Source of the DNA: Rhodopseudomonas sp. AAP120
GTDB taxonomy: Bacteria; Pseudomonadota; Alphaproteobacteria; Rhizobiales; Xanthobacteraceae
Reading direction: 5' to 3'
DNA length: 64,000 nt
Assembly (NCBI RefSeq): GCF_001295845.1
Contig: NZ_LJIC01000129.1
Coordinates: 1 to 64,000, forward strand
Position numbers and translations under genes: made by a program. A model generated the notes under the pieces. It was not told the DNA's origin. It saw nothing but the letters and a program-made list of their open reading frames with translations, and searched no databases. Shown here in pieces: positions 5,263 through 43,021 of the stretch. Position 1 is the stretch's first letter; the number at the start of each line of letters is the position of its first letter.

Positions 5263-7119
5263 ATGCCTGCTTATCGATCGAGAACGACGACCCACGGCCG
5301 CAACATGGCCGGCGCCCGCGGCCTGTGGCGCGCCACCGGCATGAAGGACAGCGATTTCGGCAAGCCGATCATCGCGGTGGTCAACTCGTTCACGCAGTTC
5401 GTGCCCGGCCACGTCCATCTCAAGGACCTCGGCCAGCTGGTCGCGCGCGAGATCGAGGCGGCCGGCGGCGTCGCCAAGGAGTTCAACACCATCGCGGTCG
5501 ACGACGGCATCGCGATGGGCCACGACGGCATGCTGTATTCGCTGCCGTCGCGCGAACTGATCGCCGACAGCGTCGAGTACATGGTCAATGCGCACTGCGC
5601 CGACGCGATGGTGTGCATCTCCAACTGCGACAAGATCACCCCCGGCATGCTGATGGCCGCGATGCGGCTGAATATTCCGGCGGTGTTCGTCTCCGGCGGC
5701 CCGATGGAAGCCGGCAAGGTCGTGCTCAAGGGCAAGACGCATTCGGTCGACCTGATCGACGCGATGGTCGCCGCCGCCGACAGCAGCATGAGCGACGAAG
5801 ACGTGCAGACCATGGAGCGCTCGGCGTGTCCGACCTGCGGCTCGTGCTCGGGCATGTTCACCGCCAATTCGATGAACTGCCTCACCGAAGCGCTCGGCCT
5901 GTCGCTGCCCGGCAACGGCTCGGTGCTCGCCACCCACGCCGATCGCAAGCGGCTGTTCGTCGAGGCCGGCCACACCATCGTCGATCTCGCCCGCCGTTAC
6001 TACGAAAACGACGACGCCTCGGTGCTGCCGCGCACCATCGCCAGCTTCAAGGCGTTCGAGAACGCCATGACGCTCGACATCGCGATGGGCGGCTCGACCA
6101 ACACGGTGCTGCATCTGCTCGCCGCCGCGCGCGAGGCCGAACTCGACTTCTCGATGAGCGACATCGATCGGCTGTCGCGCCGGGTGCCCTGCCTCAGCAA
6201 GATCGCGCCCTCGGTGCCCGACGTGCACATGGAAGACGTGCACCGCGCCGGCGGCATCATGGCGATCCTCGGCGAGCTCGACCGCGCCGGCCTGCTCGAT
6301 ACCTCGTGCCCGACCGTGCATAGCGAGACGCTCGGCGCCGCGCTGGCGCGCTGGGACATCCGCCAGAGCAACAGCGAGAGCGTGCGCACCTTCTTCCGCG
6401 CCGCGCCGGGCGGCGTGCCGAGCCAGACCGCGTTCAGCCAGGACCGCCGCTACGACGAACTCGATCTCGACCGGCAGAAGGGCGTGATCCGCGACGCCGA
6501 GCACGCCTTCAGCAAGGACGGCGGCCTCGCCGTGCTGTACGGCAACATCGCGCTCGACGGCTCGATCGTGAAGACCGCCGGCGTCGATGCGTCGGTGCTG
6601 GTGTTCTCGGGCCCCGCCAAGGTGTTCGAGAGCCAGGACGACGCGGTTTCGGCAATCCTCACCAACAAGATCGTCGCCGGCGACGTCGTGGTGATCCGCT
6701 ATGAGGGTCCGCGCGGTGGTCCGGGCATGCAGGAGATGCTGTATCCGACCAGCTACCTGAAATCGAAGGGCCTCGGCAAAGCCTGCGCGCTGATCACCGA
6801 CGGCCGCTTCTCGGGCGGCACCTCGGGCCTGTCGATCGGCCACGTCTCGCCGGAAGCGGCGGAAGGCGGCCTGATCGGCCTGGTGCGCGACGGCGACCGG
6901 ATCTCGATCGACATCCCGAACCGCGCCATCACACTCGACGTCTCCGATGCGGAGCTCGCCAAGCGCGCCGAGGAAGAAAACGCCCGCGGCGATGCCGCCT
7001 GGACGCCGAAGGACCGCAAGCGCGTCGTCTCCGCCGCGCTGCAGGCCTACGCAATGCTGACCACCAGCGCCGCCAACGGCGCCGTCCGCGACGTCAGCCG
7101 CCGCCAGGGACGGAAGTAA
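5263..7119 (+). CDS. ilvD: Dihydroxy-acid dehydratase
   Basis: Dehydrates 2,3-dihydroxy-isovalerate and -methylvalerate to the 2-keto acids in valine/isoleucine and pantothenate synthesis. At 618 residues it is the long E. coli-type enzyme. Fe-S cluster cysteines are visible at 122 ([10 protein letters not shown]) and in CPTCGSCSG at 189-195, and the GPRGGPGM motif and C-terminal DGRFSGG block are intact. It starts at ATG 5263 with ggaac upstream. It is monocistronic here. The region 4951-5262 holds only the Zur box of the divergent gene; I saw no leader peptide or attenuator. Confidence 0.97.
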
Positions 7120-37443: not shown

Positions 37444-38619
37444 GTGCAACCGGCGCGCCGCGCGCCGTCCTCTGTCAACGCGATCTCGACCGCAGAAGCT
37501 GGGTGGGCACTCGTGCGAACTCTTCCCATCGAGCCCGCCGGCACTCCGCTTCCCGACAGCAACGAGGAGCGGCCGCCGCTGATCCGGCGCACCGAAGTCG
37601 TCGCTTTCGCGCTCGTCGCCTTGCTGATCGTGGTGATCACCGGCCTGCTCTACGTCGCCAAGCCGTTCTTCCTGCCGATCGTCACCGCCTTCGTCGTCGG
37701 CACCATGCTGTCGCCGGCCGCGACCTATATGGAGCGCTGGCGAATTCCGCGCGCGGTCTGCGCCGTGCTGATCGTCGGCTTCGCTTTGATCACCGTCGGC
37801 TTCATGGTGGCGCTGATTTCAGTGCCGCTGATCGAATGGAGCAGCCGCCTGCCCGAACTCGGCGGCCTGCTGCGCGAAAAGCTGAGCTTTCTGGAGCGCC
37901 CGATCGGGCTGTGGCGGCAATTGCAGGCGTCCATCGGCGGGTCGGAAGCACTGCCCTCTTCGCCGATCCAGATGCCGCAAATCGACTGGATGCAGCCGAC
38001 GCTGGAATTCGTCTCCCCGACGCTCACCGAGTTTCTGCTGTTTCTGGTGACTCTGGTGCTGTTCGTCGCGAGCTGGAAGGATCTGCGCCGCGCCCTGGTG
38101 ATGAATTTCGGCGGCCGCGACGCGCGGTTGCGGACCTTGCGCATTCTCAACGAGATCGAACTCAGTCTCGGCGGCTATCTGCTGACGGTGACCACCATCA
38201 ACCTGTGCTACGGCGCGGCGACCGGCGTGATCTGCGCGCTGGCCGGGATGCCCAATCCGGCCGGCCTCGGCGCGCTGGCGGCGATCCTCAACTTCATTCC
38301 GATCATCGGGCCCTCGGTGATGTTCATTGTCCTGACCCTGGTCGGGATCATCAGTATGCCGACGCTCGGCGAAGGCCTGATCGGGCCCCTCGGCTTCGCC
38401 CTGCTGACCTTCGTCGAGGGGCACTTCATCACGCCGACCATCATCGGACGACGGCTGGAGCTCAATGCGCTTGCCGTCTTCATCGCGCTGGCCTTCTGGA
38501 CCTGGCTGTGGGGACCGATGGGCGGCTTCCTGGCGTCGCCGCTGCTGATCGTCGGCCTGGTGATGAAGGAGCACCTGTTGCCCGAGGACGCGCCGCATCT
38601 GCCCGGCAACGAGACCTGA
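37444..38619 (+). CDS. AI-2E family transporter (PerM/TqsA-like)
   Basis: A membrane protein of up to 391 residues with about seven or eight helices and the family block AALAAILNFIPIIGPSVMFIVLTLVG and EGHFITPTIIGRRLELN. Members export small molecules or ions; the AI-2 label comes from E. coli TqsA and need not apply. The true start may be the GTG at 37513 (VRTLPIEPAG), since the first 23 residues look unconserved. Hairpin at 38658 follows. Confidence 0.9.
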   Translation: MQPARRAPSSVNAISTAEAGWALVRTLPIEPAGTPLPDSNEERPPLIRRTEVVAFALVALLIVVITGLLYVAKPFFLPIVTAFVVGTMLSPAATYMERWRIPRAVCAVLIVGFALITVGFMVALISVPLIEWSSRLPELGGLLREKLSFLERPIGLWRQLQASIGGSEALPSSPIQMPQIDWMQPTLEFVSPTLTEFLLFLVTLVLFVASWKDLRRALVMNFGGRDARLRTLRILNEIELSLGGYLLTVTTINLCYGAATGVICALAGMPNPAGLGALAAILNFIPIIGPSVMFIVLTLVGIISMPTLGEGLIGPLGFALLTFVEGHFITPTIIGRRLELNALAVFIALAFWTWLWGPMGGFLASPLLIVGLVMKEHLLPEDAPHLPGNET

Positions 38620-38657
38620 GGCGGCACTCTAGACCCAGGCATGCATCCAAACGACAA

Positions 38658-38682
38658 CATCCGCCACCGTGGGTGGCGGATG
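38658..38682 (+). terminator. Possible terminator
   Basis: catccgccacc-gtg-ggtggcggatg, an 11-bp perfect stem followed by ctttc only. It lies between two convergent genes and could act in both directions with weak T-tracts. Confidence 0.55.
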
Positions 38683-38719
38683 CTTTCAGGCTAACCACTC
38701 TTGAGAGGAAGCAGGACCG

Positions 38720-39097
38720 TCAGGTCATGCAACGGCCGGGCTCGAGCTGTTTGGCGACGTCAGTGAGGACGCTGACTACCGGCTCGCAGGCGACCATCCG
38801 GCGCGGCGCTGCGGAGGGCTGCTGGGCGCGCGGACGACCGGCCTGACCGACCTGCGCATCCGGAACTCTAACCAGAACGGACTGGCCAACCAGAGTCACC
38901 CCGTAGGTCTGGCCCGGCGCCGACGACATTTGGCTCACCGCGCCGCGGTCGGCCTTGCCGTCCCGGTTCACGGCCTGCGCTGCGGCTTGCTCCTGCAGAC
39001 GAGGCTGCCCGAGGTCACCGCCGATCGCCAATTGCGCGACACCCAGCGTGCCCGTGACCGCGATGACGCCGAAAATTCCCCGCACGATCTGTGACAT
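38720..39097 (-). CDS. Exported hypothetical protein (125 aa)
   Basis: An N-terminal hydrophobic segment (IFGVIAVTGTLGVAQLAIG) suggests export. A Gln/Ala-rich middle is followed by a conserved-looking C terminus, MVACEPVVSVLTDVAKQLEPGRCMT, with two cysteines that could form a disulfide. I recall similar C termini in Bradyrhizobium proteins of unknown function. Single gene, convergent with the AI-2E family gene. Confidence 0.68.
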   Translation of the reverse strand: MSQIVRGIFGVIAVTGTLGVAQLAIGGDLGQPRLQEQAAAQAVNRDGKADRGAVSQMSSAPGQTYGVTLVGQSVLVRVPDAQVGQAGRPRAQQPSAAPRRMVACEPVVSVLTDVAKQLEPGRCMT

Positions 39098-39252
39098 GGT
39101 GATCCAGCCGCTGTTAGCTCGCCGCGGCAGAATCGCCGCATCCTGGTTTCAGCGGCTTGTCAATCCCCGCTGCATAAATTAATCGCCTCAGCGGGCATCA
39201 GGTTCGATCATGGTTGATCAACTAAGCGTGTGACGTTTTTTGTCGGGGGAGC

Positions 39253-39278
39253 GGAACGAAATCTGATGGCCGCGTGTT
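39253..39278 (+). promoter_or_regulatory. Candidate EcfG-dependent promoter of the sRNA
   Basis: GGAAC at 39253-39257, a 17-base spacer, and TGTT at 39275-39278, directly before the predicted RNA. One -10 base departs from CGTT. Confidence 0.5.
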
Positions 39279-39284
39279 CTTCGA

Positions 39285-39366
39285 AGGCCGGTTAGTCCCC
39301 CTGCCCCAATTAACCGGCGATACAGGGCGCAGCTGTGGTGATGCCAGCTGCGCCCTGTTCTTTTTT
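39285..39366 (+). ncRNA. Candidate small RNA with C-rich loop and strong terminator
   Basis: No plus-strand gene lies upstream, yet a perfect 14-bp terminator stem (acagggcgcagctg / cagctgcgccctgt, 322-335 and 345-358 after 39000) with t-c-tttttt ends at 39366. Before it, gccggtta / taaccggc (39287-39294 with 39311-39318) closes a stem whose loop is ccccctgcccca, a potential anti-Shine-Dalgarno surface. An EcfG-like promoter places a start near 39285, giving about 82 nt. It sits between an exported protein gene and phyR. Structure is seen; transcription is predicted. Confidence 0.65.
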
Positions 39367-39470
39367 CAGCACCCTATCAGTTTCGACCGCAGCATCCGGC
39401 CGGCGAAACAGCCGGCAAGCAAAAGCCGCCCGCGCTTTGGCACGAGCGGCTTTCGTGGAATGGACGGCGG

Positions 39471-40283
39471 TCAGGACGCGGCGGCGTTCGGCGTCCTGTT
39501 GCGCGAATTGCGCTGGAAGAACAACGCCTGGCTGGCGACGGCCGAAACCATCGCGGGCTGGAACGGCTTGGAGATCAGGAACGCCGGCTCGGGCCGTTCG
39601 CCGGTGAGGAAGCGCTCGGGATAGGCAGTGATGAACACCACCGGCACCTCGAAGGTCTTCAGGAGTTCATTGACCGCATCGAGACCGGAGCTGCCATCCG
39701 CAAGCTGGATATCCGCCAGGATCAGGCCCGGCTTCTTGGTGCGCGCCAGAGCGATTGCATCGGAGTGCGTGCGAGCCACGCCGATCACGTTGTGACCGAG
39801 GTTCTTCACGAGGCTTTCGAGGTCCATCGCGATGAAGGTCTCGTCCTCGATGATCAGCACATCGGTCGCGATTTCTTCGGCCATTTCGCGGCCGGCGGCG
39901 TCGGCGAGCTGACGAACCTCGTTGACGTCGGTGTGCAGGACGAAAGCTACTTCTTCTTCGGAAAAGCCTTCTAGCGACAGCAGCAGGAAGGCCTGACGCG
40001 GCAGCGGCGTGATCGCGGACAAACGCCGCTCCGACGGCATCGGCAGAGAGCGAACCTCGGAATCATCGTTGAGGGCGACCGAATTCCAGATCTGCGCGAA
40101 CAGCCTGAACAGCGCCGCGCGCGGACCATGACGCTCGTCCAGCAGGCCCGGGTCCTGCAGCAAAGCCTCCAACATCGCCGCTACGTAAGCGTCTCCGGAA
40201 GCCTGGCTCCCGGTCAGCGCGCGCGCATAACGGCGCAGTAACGGCAAATGCTCAGCAACCAATTGCGATCTCGACATCCCCAC
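39471..40283 (-). CDS. phyR: General stress response anti-anti-sigma factor PhyR
   Basis: A 270-residue response regulator with an N-terminal sigma-like domain (about 1-135, LPLLRRYARALTGSQASGD...LSLEGFSEEEVAFVL) and a C-terminal receiver (about 141-260) with phospho-acceptor D191 in LILADIQLAD and K in FLISKPF. When phosphorylated it sequesters NepR, freeing EcfG. Divergent from nepR-ecfG, the standard arrangement. A second ATG six bases downstream (MSRSQL) may be used. A GGAAC-N16-CGTA element lies upstream. Confidence 0.97.
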   Translation of the reverse strand: MGMSRSQLVAEHLPLLRRYARALTGSQASGDAYVAAMLEALLQDPGLLDERHGPRAALFRLFAQIWNSVALNDDSEVRSLPMPSERRLSAITPLPRQAFLLLSLEGFSEEEVAFVLHTDVNEVRQLADAAGREMAEEIATDVLIIEDETFIAMDLESLVKNLGHNVIGVARTHSDAIALARTKKPGLILADIQLADGSSGLDAVNELLKTFEVPVVFITAYPERFLTGERPEPAFLISKPFQPAMVSAVASQALFFQRNSRNRTPNAAAS

Positions 40284-40347
40284 TCCAATCTCGAAGCTTG
40301 TCTCGGCCCGTCATCGAACGGGGCGGCCGGGCCCCTGCAGCACTACC

Positions 40348-40372
40348 TACGCCGAACGGGACGAAAAGTTCC
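40348..40372 (-). promoter_or_regulatory. Candidate EcfG-dependent phyR promoter
   Basis: Minus strand GGAAC (40372-40368), 16-base spacer, CGTA (40351-40348). It matches the EcfG consensus except the last -10 base, and lies 65 bp before phyR. Autoregulation of this locus is known in relatives. Confidence 0.55.
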
Positions 40373-40497
40373 ATCGCGCCCGGGAACTTTAGAGCCGCTG
40401 TCGAATTAGGCTCCCAGTGACACGGCAAAACCTTCAAAAATCAAGCAAAACCCTAGATTTTCAGGGACTTGACCATGGGGAAAACATTGGATCAGTC

Positions 40498-40719
40498 ATG
40501 GCAGAATTCAAGGCTAAAACCATGAAGAAGTCGGCGCCTGGCAGTAAGGGCGGTTTGAATCAGGAGATTCAAGCGAGAATCGGCCACCAGCTGCGCGCGA
40601 TGTATGACGATGTCGTCCGGCAAGGCGTACCCGATCGTTTCGCGGATCTGATCAAACGGCTAGACGAGCCCCAGCAACAAAGCGATTCCGCAGCGGTCGA
40701 CAGCGAGAGGAGGGATTAA
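40498..40719 (+). CDS. nepR: Anti-sigma factor NepR
   Basis: A 73-residue protein with the NepR core LNQEIQARIGHQLRAMYDDVVRQGVPDRFADLIKRLDE. It binds and inhibits EcfG and is titrated by phosphorylated PhyR. Start at ATG 40498 (MAEFKAK); an earlier start adds unconserved residues. Its stop overlaps the ecfG start (taatg), coupling sigma and anti-sigma synthesis. Confidence 0.94.
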   Translation: MAEFKAKTMKKSAPGSKGGLNQEIQARIGHQLRAMYDDVVRQGVPDRFADLIKRLDEPQQQSDSAAVDSERRD

Positions 40720-41264
40720 TGCCTCTCACCGACTCCCTTCGAGACGACATCCTCGCCGCGGTGCCGAGCTTGCGCGCTTTCGCGATTTCGCTGAGTGGCA
40801 ACGGCGACCGGGCCGACGATCTGGTGCAGGAAACCCTGCTGCGGGCGCTGGCGAATATCGACTCCTTCCAGCCCGGCTCCAATCTGCCGGCCTGGCTGTT
40901 CACGATCCTGCGCAACCTGTTTCGCTCCGACTATCGAAAGCGCCGACGTGAAGTGGAAGATGCCGACGGCAGCTACGCGAAGACGCTGAAGTCTCAGCCC
41001 GGCCAGAACGCGCATCTGGAGTTCGAGGAATTCCGGACCGCGCTGGACAAGCTTCCGCAGGACCAGCGCGAGGCCTTGATCCTGGTCGGCGCCTCAGGCT
41101 TCTCCTACGAAGATGCGGCGGCGATCTGCGGATGCGCGGTCGGCACCATCAAGAGCCGCGTGAACCGCGCCCGTTCGAAGCTGAGCGCCCTGCTGTATGT
41201 CGACGGTGCTGAAGACTTTGGGCCGGACGACACCGTCCGTGCCGTGATCGGCAGCAACGGCTGA
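40719..41264 (+). CDS. ecfG: ECF sigma factor EcfG
   Basis: A 181-residue ECF15-group sigma factor. Region 2 (LSGNGDRADDLVQETLLRALANIDSFQPGSNLPAWLFTILRNLFRSDYRKRRRE) and region 4 (LDKLPQDQREALILVGASGFSYEDAAAICGCAVGTIKSRVNRARSKL) are complete. It directs the general stress regulon from GGAAC-N16/17-CGTT promoters. gaggaggga precedes the ATG. Convergent with the sensor kinase gene. Confidence 0.96.
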   Translation: MPLTDSLRDDILAAVPSLRAFAISLSGNGDRADDLVQETLLRALANIDSFQPGSNLPAWLFTILRNLFRSDYRKRRREVEDADGSYAKTLKSQPGQNAHLEFEEFRTALDKLPQDQREALILVGASGFSYEDAAAICGCAVGTIKSRVNRARSKLSALLYVDGAEDFGPDDTVRAVIGSNG

Positions 41265-41365: not shown

Positions 41366-43021
41366 TCAGTTGCGCCGGACGGGCGCCGAGATCTGGCCGG
41401 TTCGGTCGCGTTCGTTCATGTCGACCACGGTCTCCATCGGCGCGGTCAGCTCGTACACGTAGCTGACGTCGGTGAAATAGCGCTTGGCAGTGCCGCCCAG
41501 GGCCTCCGGCGCGACGCGATCGAGCAGAATGACGCCGAAGTCGCTGTCGGGCCGCCGTGTCGCTTCGCTGGTATTGAACTCTTCCCAACGGAAGTTGAAC
41601 ATCGACTCCGCCCCGTCTCCGCTGACCTCCCAGCTCGCAACGATGTGCGGATGCTTGCCGACCAGCGATAATCCCTCGTCGGAGTGTGAGGCGAGTTCGA
41701 AAAACAGCAGCGACAGGCTCTGCGCGGCGCGGGCGCTCACCGCGATATCCGGACCGTTCACTGCGATGCGGTCGGCGTGCGGAATGGCGCGGGCCTCGAA
41801 CAGCCCTTTCAGCATCACGCCCTGCCATTGGCTCTCGCTCAGCAGGGACACCACATTGGACATCGCGTGGATCCGGCCGATCAGCAATTCCCGCGCGACG
41901 TCCATGTCGGACCCATGCCGCAGCGTTCGGGTCACGATCGACTGGATGACGGCCAGAATGTTCTTCACGCGGTGGTTGAGTTCGTCGATCACCGCGGTCA
42001 ACCGCCGCTCGAACCCGATCCTGATCTCGATTTCCCGGCGCAAGCGAATGTTGCTGTTGGTCACGTAGCCGAACAAACCGCAAACGATGAAGGTCAGCGA
42101 TAATCCGATCGCCGCCACGATCGCGGCGACCTGCTGGGCACGCACATAGGGGCTCACCTTTGCGTAGTACGCCAGGGACCAGTCGCGGTCGCCGAATGTG
42201 ACGGTTCTGACGATAGTGGGCGGCTGCCCGTCCGGATTGGTCTGACGCTCGCTGACTTTACCGCGCTCGTCGGCCACCAGTTCGACATTGGGCTGGCGCG
42301 GATCCTTCAACACCACCGAGAACAAGGACATATCGTCGTTGGTGAGCATCAGCGCGGAAAGGTCGTAGGAGAAGGTGATGAAGCCGACGGCCTCGGTCGC
42401 ATCCTCGCTCATCACGGGCGCGGCCAGAACGATGCCGATCGGCCCGCCGGGCACCTGCAAACGAGCCGGGTCGGAGGCTTCGGGCTTCCCATCGGCCAGC
42501 GAACGGGCGAACATCTGCCCGAGCACCGGATGATCGTCGAGCGACTTGCCGAGTAGCGCGGTCGTCTCGTCGTTGCGCGGCTCGACATCCATCACCACGT
42601 CGAGCGGCTCGCTCTGCGTTGCAGGATCGATCAGGCTGCCGTCCGAATGCCGGATCTTGATATCGGGGAAACCGGCGTTGGCCAGCTCGGCCTCGGCGGC
42701 CGCGAATTCCGGCCCTTTCAGCCGCACCACCCAGCTCGCAAGCAGGAAGTCTGTCTTGAACGCATAAATCGACGACCGCAGCGGCTTCAGCATATCGGCC
42801 TTGATGACCGCCGGCGTCCGGAACAGGCCTGAAGCCACGCGCCCCAGCAACTCCCGTTCGGTCAGCCGATCCTGGACCTGGCTGGCATGAACGTCGATGG
42901 CGCGGCCGAGCGCGATTCGCTCGACCGCAGACTCTTGATCGTAAATGCGAAAGGCCGCGAGACCCGAAAGCAGGACCCCGACGATCGCCACCAGCGCAAT
43001 GATGAATCCCAGCCGAACCAA
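41366..43021 (-). CDS. Membrane sensor histidine kinase of the HWE/HisKA_2 group, GSR-locus (PhyK-like)
   Basis: A 551-residue protein with membrane helices at about 4-24 and 298-320 flanking a large periplasmic sensor (about 25-295), which has a CHASE-like character. The H-box is LNHRVKNILAVIQSIVTRTL with His350. Position beside phyR-nepR-ecfG suggests it phosphorylates PhyR. Unusually, the N-box reads FELASHS where ELATNA is expected, and the following G-box region (DSDFGVILLDRV) is weak, so catalysis may be impaired. TTG appears to be the start. Confidence 0.9.
   Translation of the reverse strand: MVRLGFIIALVAIVGVLLSGLAAFRIYDQESAVERIALGRAIDVHASQVQDRLTERELLGRVASGLFRTPAVIKADMLKPLRSSIYAFKTDFLLASWVVRLKGPEFAAAEAELANAGFPDIKIRHSDGSLIDPATQSEPLDVVMDVEPRNDETTALLGKSLDDHPVLGQMFARSLADGKPEASDPARLQVPGGPIGIVLAAPVMSEDATEAVGFITFSYDLSALMLTNDDMSLFSVVLKDPRQPNVELVADERGKVSERQTNPDGQPPTIVRTVTFGDRDWSLAYYAKVSPYVRAQQVAAIVAAIGLSLTFIVCGLFGYVTNSNIRLRREIEIRIGFERRLTAVIDELNHRVKNILAVIQSIVTRTLRHGSDMDVARELLIGRIHAMSNVVSLLSESQWQGVMLKGLFEARAIPHADRIAVNGPDIAVSARAAQSLSLLFFELASHSDEGLSLVGKHPHIVASWEVSGDGAESMFNFRWEEFNTSEATRRPDSDFGVILLDRVAPEALGGTAKRYFTDVSYVYELTAPMETVVDMNERDRTGQISAPVRRN

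Follow-up and report, generated by a model that had tools for sequence, protein, structure and literature searches.

A conserved candidate small RNA gene with an EcfG-type promoter near phyR in Rhodopseudomonas and related genera

In the general stress locus of Rhodopseudomonas sp. AAP120, an intrinsic terminator lies on the plus strand without a plus-strand gene leading into it, which raises the question of whether a small RNA (sRNA) gene of its own ends there and, if so, of what kind. The window, the whole stretch of 64,000 nucleotides that was analysed, lies on contig 34 of the 6.16-Mb genome. Within it, phyR, nepR, ecfG and a gene for a likely PhyR kinase are found on one side of the terminator, and a gene for a small hypothetical protein, divergent from the putative sRNA gene, on the other (Table 1). 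Going upstream, the first plus-strand gene to have a Pfam match encodes an AI-2E-type transporter and stops at 38619, with a minus-strand open reading frame in between, in agreement with the original prediction that no plus-strand gene precedes the terminator. The sRNA gene and phyR are convergent, with phyR reading toward the sRNA.

Table 1. Features of the predicted sRNA gene and its neighbourhood, in positions of the window
Feature	Position	Strand	Basis
Gene for a small hypothetical protein, usual neighbour of the sRNA and divergent from it	38720..39097	-	No Pfam match; relative beside the match in 49/52 loci
GGAAC, -35 element of a sigma-EcfG-type promoter	39253..39257	+	Sequence; 84/84 copies
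TGTT, -10 element, 17-nt spacer after GGAAC	39275..39278	+	Sequence; nGTY in 74/84 copies
Predicted sRNA, ~82 nt	39285..39366	+	5' end inferred from promoter, 3' end from terminator; fold z -5.8; family-wide covariation
5' hairpin, 10 pairs, arms 39287-39296 / 39309-39318	39287..39318	+	Fold; 7 pairs in family model, 3 changed on both sides
C-rich 12-nt loop CCCCCTGCCCCA, presumed target-binding site	39297..39308	+	Unpaired in fold
Intrinsic terminator: 14-bp stem, loop TGGTGATGC, T-tract	39322..39366	+	Fold; 12/13 modelled pairs changed on both sides
Separate terminator-like hairpin and T-run of phyR	~39420..39450	-	By eye from minus strand
phyR, response regulator with sigma-like domain	39471..40283	-	Pfam PhyR_sigma2, PhyR_sigma-like, Response_reg
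nepR, anti-sigma factor, start codon uncertain	40417..40719	+	Pfam NepR
ecfG, general stress sigma factor	40719..41264	+	Pfam Sigma70_r2, Sigma70_r4_2; position
Likely PhyR kinase (HWE histidine kinase, CHASE domain)	41366..43021	-	Pfam

The terminator had been described as a perfect 14-bp stem with a T-tract to 39366, and this was exact on direct reading of the sequence. The arms at 39322-39335 and 39345-39358 form 14 perfect pairs around the 9-nt loop TGGTGATGC and are followed by T, C and six T. The stem of 8-10 bp said to expose a C-rich loop just before the terminator was likewise borne out, with 10 pairs, of which the eight outer ones are Watson-Crick and are followed by a G.U and then a U-A pair, enclosing the 12-nt loop. 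Folding of 39283-39370 gave an energy of -45.1 kcal/mol against a shuffle mean of -26.8 (sd 3.2; z -5.8), with 0 of 200 shuffles as stable. The 5' hairpin by itself (39285-39321) gave a z of -2.9, and 1 of 200 shuffles was equally stable. The terminator hairpin of the sRNA was not listed by a simple terminator scan, whose loop limit is 8 nt against the 9-nt loop present here, and the same simple scan found no sigma-70-type promoter in 37500-41000.

An EcfG-type promoter of the form GGAAC-N17-TGTT, which the original prediction had placed so as to start an RNA of about 82 nt, is present at the expected position, and 82 nt follow from ~39285. GGAAC stands 28-31 nt ahead of the model start in all 84 copies compared, against a chance of 0.7% per 10-nt stretch or 3.5% per 40-nt stretch. 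A -10-like tetramer nGTY occurs at a spacing of 15-17 in 74 of these copies and is absent at spacing 15-18 in the other 10. Sixteen of the 84 copies belong to the genus, 50 (43 distinct RNAs) were taken from named phyR loci, and the remaining 18 come from other genera. The count is without L099, a half-lost copy in which GGAAC is not in place, L170, which is a terminator only, and L163, a similar hairpin with GGAAC not in place and with phyR absent from its 3.1-kb contig; eight Rhodopseudomonas loci (L048-L055) were omitted because the genus was already represented by the 16 genus genomes. In the alignment of those 16 genomes the promoter spacer and flanks vary, while GGAAC is invariant and the C-rich and terminator loops are nearly so.

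Upstream of the sRNA promoter, a block at ~39178-39234 (TTAATCG..GGTTCGAT..GATCAACT.AG.GTGTGA) appeared by eye to be shared by most of the 16 genus genomes, with poorer conservation in L015 and L017. It is possibly the site of a regulator or the promoter of the divergent gene.

The proposed structure is also upheld by comparison. RNAalifold, applied to the 16-copy genus alignment that had not been fitted to any model, returned 20 pairs, 10 of them with kept double changes. Among 53 aligned copies, which include eight from loci with PhyR only 66-68% identical, 97.9% of pair cells were standard pairs; none of the covariation measures was reached in 500 shuffles, and partner-slid controls fell to 27-49% paired. 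The original prediction had staked itself on compensatory changes in the stems across relatives, and these were found, with 15 of the 20 pairs changed on both sides. A set of 59 matches (52 distinct) at named phyR loci, which overlaps the 53-copy set and includes the half-lost L099, gave 99.5% standard pairs and 12 of 20 pairs changed on both sides. Both of these alignments lean toward the model because they were fitted to it; the unfitted 16-copy alignment agrees with them on covariation. A spurious reverse-strand row (L015) was excluded from the alignment through a stricter search cut-off.

These changes also bear on whether the transcript could instead be the mRNA of a short peptide. Frames of 9-21 codons can start within the modelled stretch in the 16 genus copies. 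However, the length of the C-rich loop shifts by single bases among close relatives and the stems carry compensatory changes, so that a peptide mRNA is scarcely credible.

Both loops are conserved in sequence over much of this range. CTGCCCC is found in the C-rich loop of 15/16 genus copies, 50/50 copies at named phyR loci and 6/18 others; the 18 copies from other genera have C-runs of 4-6 in varied sequence. At the terminator loop, GTGATGCC is present in 16/16, 50/50 and 8/18 copies, respectively. A terminator loop need not be conserved, yet this one is, and it may therefore be a second contact site. The terminator-loop motif TGGTGATGCC occurs at 124 sites in the genome against 4 for a control pattern, and was considered as a genome repeat; this was rejected, as among 28 of the 124 sites that were folded only the sRNA site is a terminator hairpin. 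In a Bradyrhizobium genome (G148), a second hairpin with the same GTGGTGATGCC loop, a relative of the sRNA reduced to the terminator, lies at L139:1501-1581, ~1.6 kb from the full copy.

By DNA search, every one of the 16 genus genomes contains a single match to the element. Model R1, built from these copies, was run on 296 family genomes representing 47 genera and has matches in 105 of them, spread over 15 genera. Twenty R1 matches were re-fetched, comprising the 15 weakest loci, doubtful ones among them, and five stronger ones; 17 of the 20 adjoin phyR, the exceptions being L163 and L166, on contigs of ~3 kb, and L170, a terminator alone. Eighty phyR loci were fetched by name, and in 58 of them the RNA was located less than 3 kb downstream of phyR (distances of 67-2718 nt). 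It also adjoins phyR in eight loci of distant genera with PhyR only 66-68% identical. Bradyrhizobium sp. Arg816 (L099) retains a half-lost copy at phyR (5466-5556), a terminator-only relative, and has a full copy elsewhere in its genome. For the 21 remaining genomes, those of 21 phyR loci without a nearby RNA plus L099 and with L109 left out, a full-length match was found somewhere in 20, the exception being a metagenome bin (L083).

The full copy lies 6.7 kb from phyR in Bradyrhizobium sp. AT1 and ~2 Mb from it on the same 8.17-Mb contig in B. nitroreducens TSA1 (with coordinates assumed to run the same way), and both copies still adjoin the divergent hypothetical gene. A relative of this gene adjoins the RNA in all 20 of these genomes with a full-length match, and stands beside the match in 49 of 52 loci tested, where the other three (L137, L138 and L139) are not the sRNA. 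No relative was found in the eight most divergent phyR-linked loci or in L160. Through the inner part of the family, the divergent position next to the RNA is generally occupied by the gene for the small hypothetical protein, also where phyR is distant.

The location of the element on the 3' side of phyR in the window could suggest that it merely terminates phyR or a transcript from upstream. A T-tract is found on the plus strand alone, however, and phyR has a hairpin and T-run of its own; the conserved 5' hairpin and GGAAC would have no role in a terminator; and the AT1 and TSA1 copies stand far from phyR beside the divergent gene. Since in some Bradyrhizobium the RNA is found away from phyR with the divergent gene alongside, it is an independent gene and not the phyR terminator. 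That alternative is refuted as far as sequence allows, and we regard it as very improbable.

The element is thus real, conserved and correctly read, and its kind is already known. The original prediction had found no RNA family to name, and Rfam 15 gave 0 matches in the window at gathering cut-offs; 17 sub-threshold matches at 39200-39400 all belonged to unrelated families. Alphaproteobacterial stress sRNAs with C-rich loops include the CcsR or 'cuckoo' RNAs of Rhodobacter and rhizobia, which have CCUCCUCCC loops, are arranged in arrays and are under RpoH control. In contrast, the RNA described here has one copy per genus genome (16/16), an EcfG-type promoter and a CCCCCUGCCCC loop. Membership of the cuckoo group was rejected on the single match in each of the 16 genomes and on a loop other than CCUCCUCCC. 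The BjsR and BjrC sRNAs likewise come from the Bradyrhizobium/Rhodopseudomonas lineage (PMC5082802, PMC4842269). In the available portions of these B. japonicum transcriptome papers no BjsR or BjrC RNA is described at phyR, and the BjsR RNAs tabulated there have RpoD, RpoN or no predicted promoters (PMC5082802).

The closest likeness is to GsrN of Caulobacter crescentus. According to the accessible text of Tien, Fiebig and Crosson (2018, PMC5869019), GsrN is a direct target of SigT, the EcfG homologue, binds the katG leader through a C-rich 5' loop, and confers protection against peroxide. Its gene usually lies close to phyR-nepR-ecfG, with C. crescentus itself as an exception, and the presence of gsrN in R. 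palustris and B. diazoefficiens was predicted on two grounds alone, nearness to the stress locus and an EcfG site (PMC5869019). An RNA arm of the general stress response is therefore a known idea, as GsrN is exactly that, and the novelty claimed for such an arm in the original prediction falls away. What the comparison supports is the predicted sRNA gene beside phyR itself, equipped with a C-rich loop, a terminator of its own and a promoter of the EcfG type. GsrN and this sRNA have in common an EcfG/SigT-type promoter, here as the sequence element GGAAC in every copy compared, a length of ~80-100 nt, an exposed C-rich loop in the 5' part, evident here from the fold and the loop comparison, a 3' intrinsic terminator, and usual proximity to the stress locus, which holds for the window and the 58 phyR-linked loci with several Bradyrhizobium as exceptions. 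They differ in that the loop here reads five Cs (six in many relatives), UG and four Cs, in that the predictions made here gave no sign of katG-leader pairing, and in the terminator loop, which is conserved in this lineage.

Because it has the position and promoter features predicted, the sRNA is very probably the gene meant by Tien et al. (PMC5869019), and hence a local version of the Caulobacter stress RNA already predicted in print for the group; having the features of the predicted gsrN, it is filed here as GsrN-like in how it works. Beyond PMC5869019, titles and the openings of abstracts pointed to no other publication on this sRNA gene. New here are the covariation, the family-wide promoter, the lack of an Rfam match, the independence from phyR in some Bradyrhizobium, the constant divergent neighbour and the conserved terminator loop. 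What was in print as a prediction from position and promoter alone thereby gains firm comparative support, in the form of a family whose stems covary, whose promoter is constant and whose distribution is mapped. The covariance model, the named strains and a gene that is an easy target for knockout provide a handle, in phototrophs and legume symbionts, for asking if an RNA layer belongs to the general stress response of all alphaproteobacteria.

The gene anatomy, the conserved promoter sequence, the covarying stems, the conserved loop and the position are directly established. From these we infer transcription, EcfG dependence, pairing, a part for Hfq and the existence of targets, and consider it probable, with good confidence, that the locus encodes a free-standing, EcfG-driven, trans-acting regulatory RNA of the GsrN kind whose C-rich loop pairs with mRNAs. 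In such a system, stress would activate PhyR, and NepR would release sigma-EcfG by partner switching. Sigma-EcfG would then drive synthesis of the RNA from the GGAAC-N17-TGTT promoter, and the RNA would end at its own terminator. The C-rich loop of the 5' hairpin would base-pair, presumably aided by Hfq, with G-rich segments of ribosome-binding sites or mRNA leaders, and this pairing would alter the translation or stability of the target mRNAs.

The search for targets covered katG and a single 11-mer. This 11-mer, GGGGCAGGGGG, is the exact complement of the loop and has 49 sites outside the sRNA gene in the 16 genus genomes, against 19 for the reversed control pattern. Fifteen of the 49 have, no more than 40 nt downstream, a candidate start codon that opens a frame of 60 codons or more; several of these candidates are GTG. 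Just one site is neatly placed, 7 nt ahead of the ATG for a membrane-type protein; it is found in two relatives (L221 and L276) and not in the genome of the window, where none of the three complement sites resembles a ribosome-binding site. One of the sites in that genome (L269) has an ATG 26 nt on, and is placed inside a gene because the frame is open through the site. All 16 genus genomes possess katG. The best predicted pairing of the loop with it is to the first codons in 15 genomes and to the leader in the remaining one. Against the katG leader the loop did no better than against shuffled leaders in any of the 16 genomes, where 53-296 of 300 shuffles were as good (53 in the genome of the window), which gives no ground for carrying the katG link over from Caulobacter.

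A strongly conserved loop for which the 11-mer and katG search gave no clear mRNA target would also suit an RNA sponge or protein-binding RNA, whose C-rich loop would titrate an RNA-binding protein or a G-rich sRNA instead of pairing with mRNAs. That search was shallow, however, and GsrN, with the same layout, acts through mRNA pairing according to the accessible text of PMC5869019; a sponge is accordingly judged improbable, and pairing with mRNAs is preferred.

A separate matter is descent. Searches with R1 and R2 covered samples of 347 genomes from the order, family members among them, and 337 from the class; under stricter filters, which lose weak matches, they turned up nothing credible outside the family. 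Weak matches considered as distant homologues were rejected. L137/L212 is a terminator right after phyR, and L138 a terminator after a gene that, from its last residues, we take to be rho. In L217 and L218 a terminator with a C-rich loop lies behind a coding end, and the layout is not shown in L213, L214, L216 and L219. L210, L211 and L215 have C-rich hairpins and terminators, but are without GGAAC.

A scan for the layout of promoter, C-rich loop and terminator was positive at 2 of 29 phyR loci (L295 and L311) against 1 of 290 shuffled loci. The 29 loci were the best matches of the 49 positive genomes among 318 of the class, with the window's own excluded, and the scan misses some copies, since it recovered only 11 of 16 known ones. 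L311 is a doubtful match and L295 a good GsrN-like candidate. The latter, from another family of the order, lies beside phyR on the minus strand (from position 1259 of that strand) and has a GGAAC promoter, a CCGGCC/GGCCGG stem, a C-rich loop and a terminator. R2 has no match in its genome (G409). The element at L295 hints at a continuum.

These results bear on the possibility that the sRNA is a lineage-specific, EcfG-driven RNA that arose independently of Caulobacter GsrN and converged on a C-rich loop. As this concerns descent, it is compatible with the preferred reading, which concerns how the sRNA works. The lack of a credible copy outside the family, the nature of the weak outside matches (ordinary terminators, coding stretches and C-rich elements without GGAAC) and the BLASTn matches to GsrN, reported in the accessible text of PMC5869019 only within Caulobacteraceae, all speak for independent origin. 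On the other hand, the filters of the large searches lose weak matches, copies with quite different loops still adjoin phyR inside the family, and the GsrN-like L295 stands beside phyR in another family, though missed by R2. Loss of detectable similarity is to be expected because short sRNAs diverge fast, as the varied loops at phyR and the missed L295 illustrate. We take convergence seriously, while doubting it more than we believe it. Less likely again, though not negligible, is a fuller version in which this is a second, independently evolved EcfG-controlled sRNA family, present only in the Bradyrhizobium/Rhodopseudomonas family, with functional C-rich and GUGAUGCC terminator loops and functionally tied to the divergent small protein even where phyR has moved away.

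Two of the rejected loci deserve mention in their own right. L210 and L215, from other families of the order, have hairpins with C-rich loops followed by terminators, with GGAAC absent upstream, and are perhaps other C-rich sRNAs.
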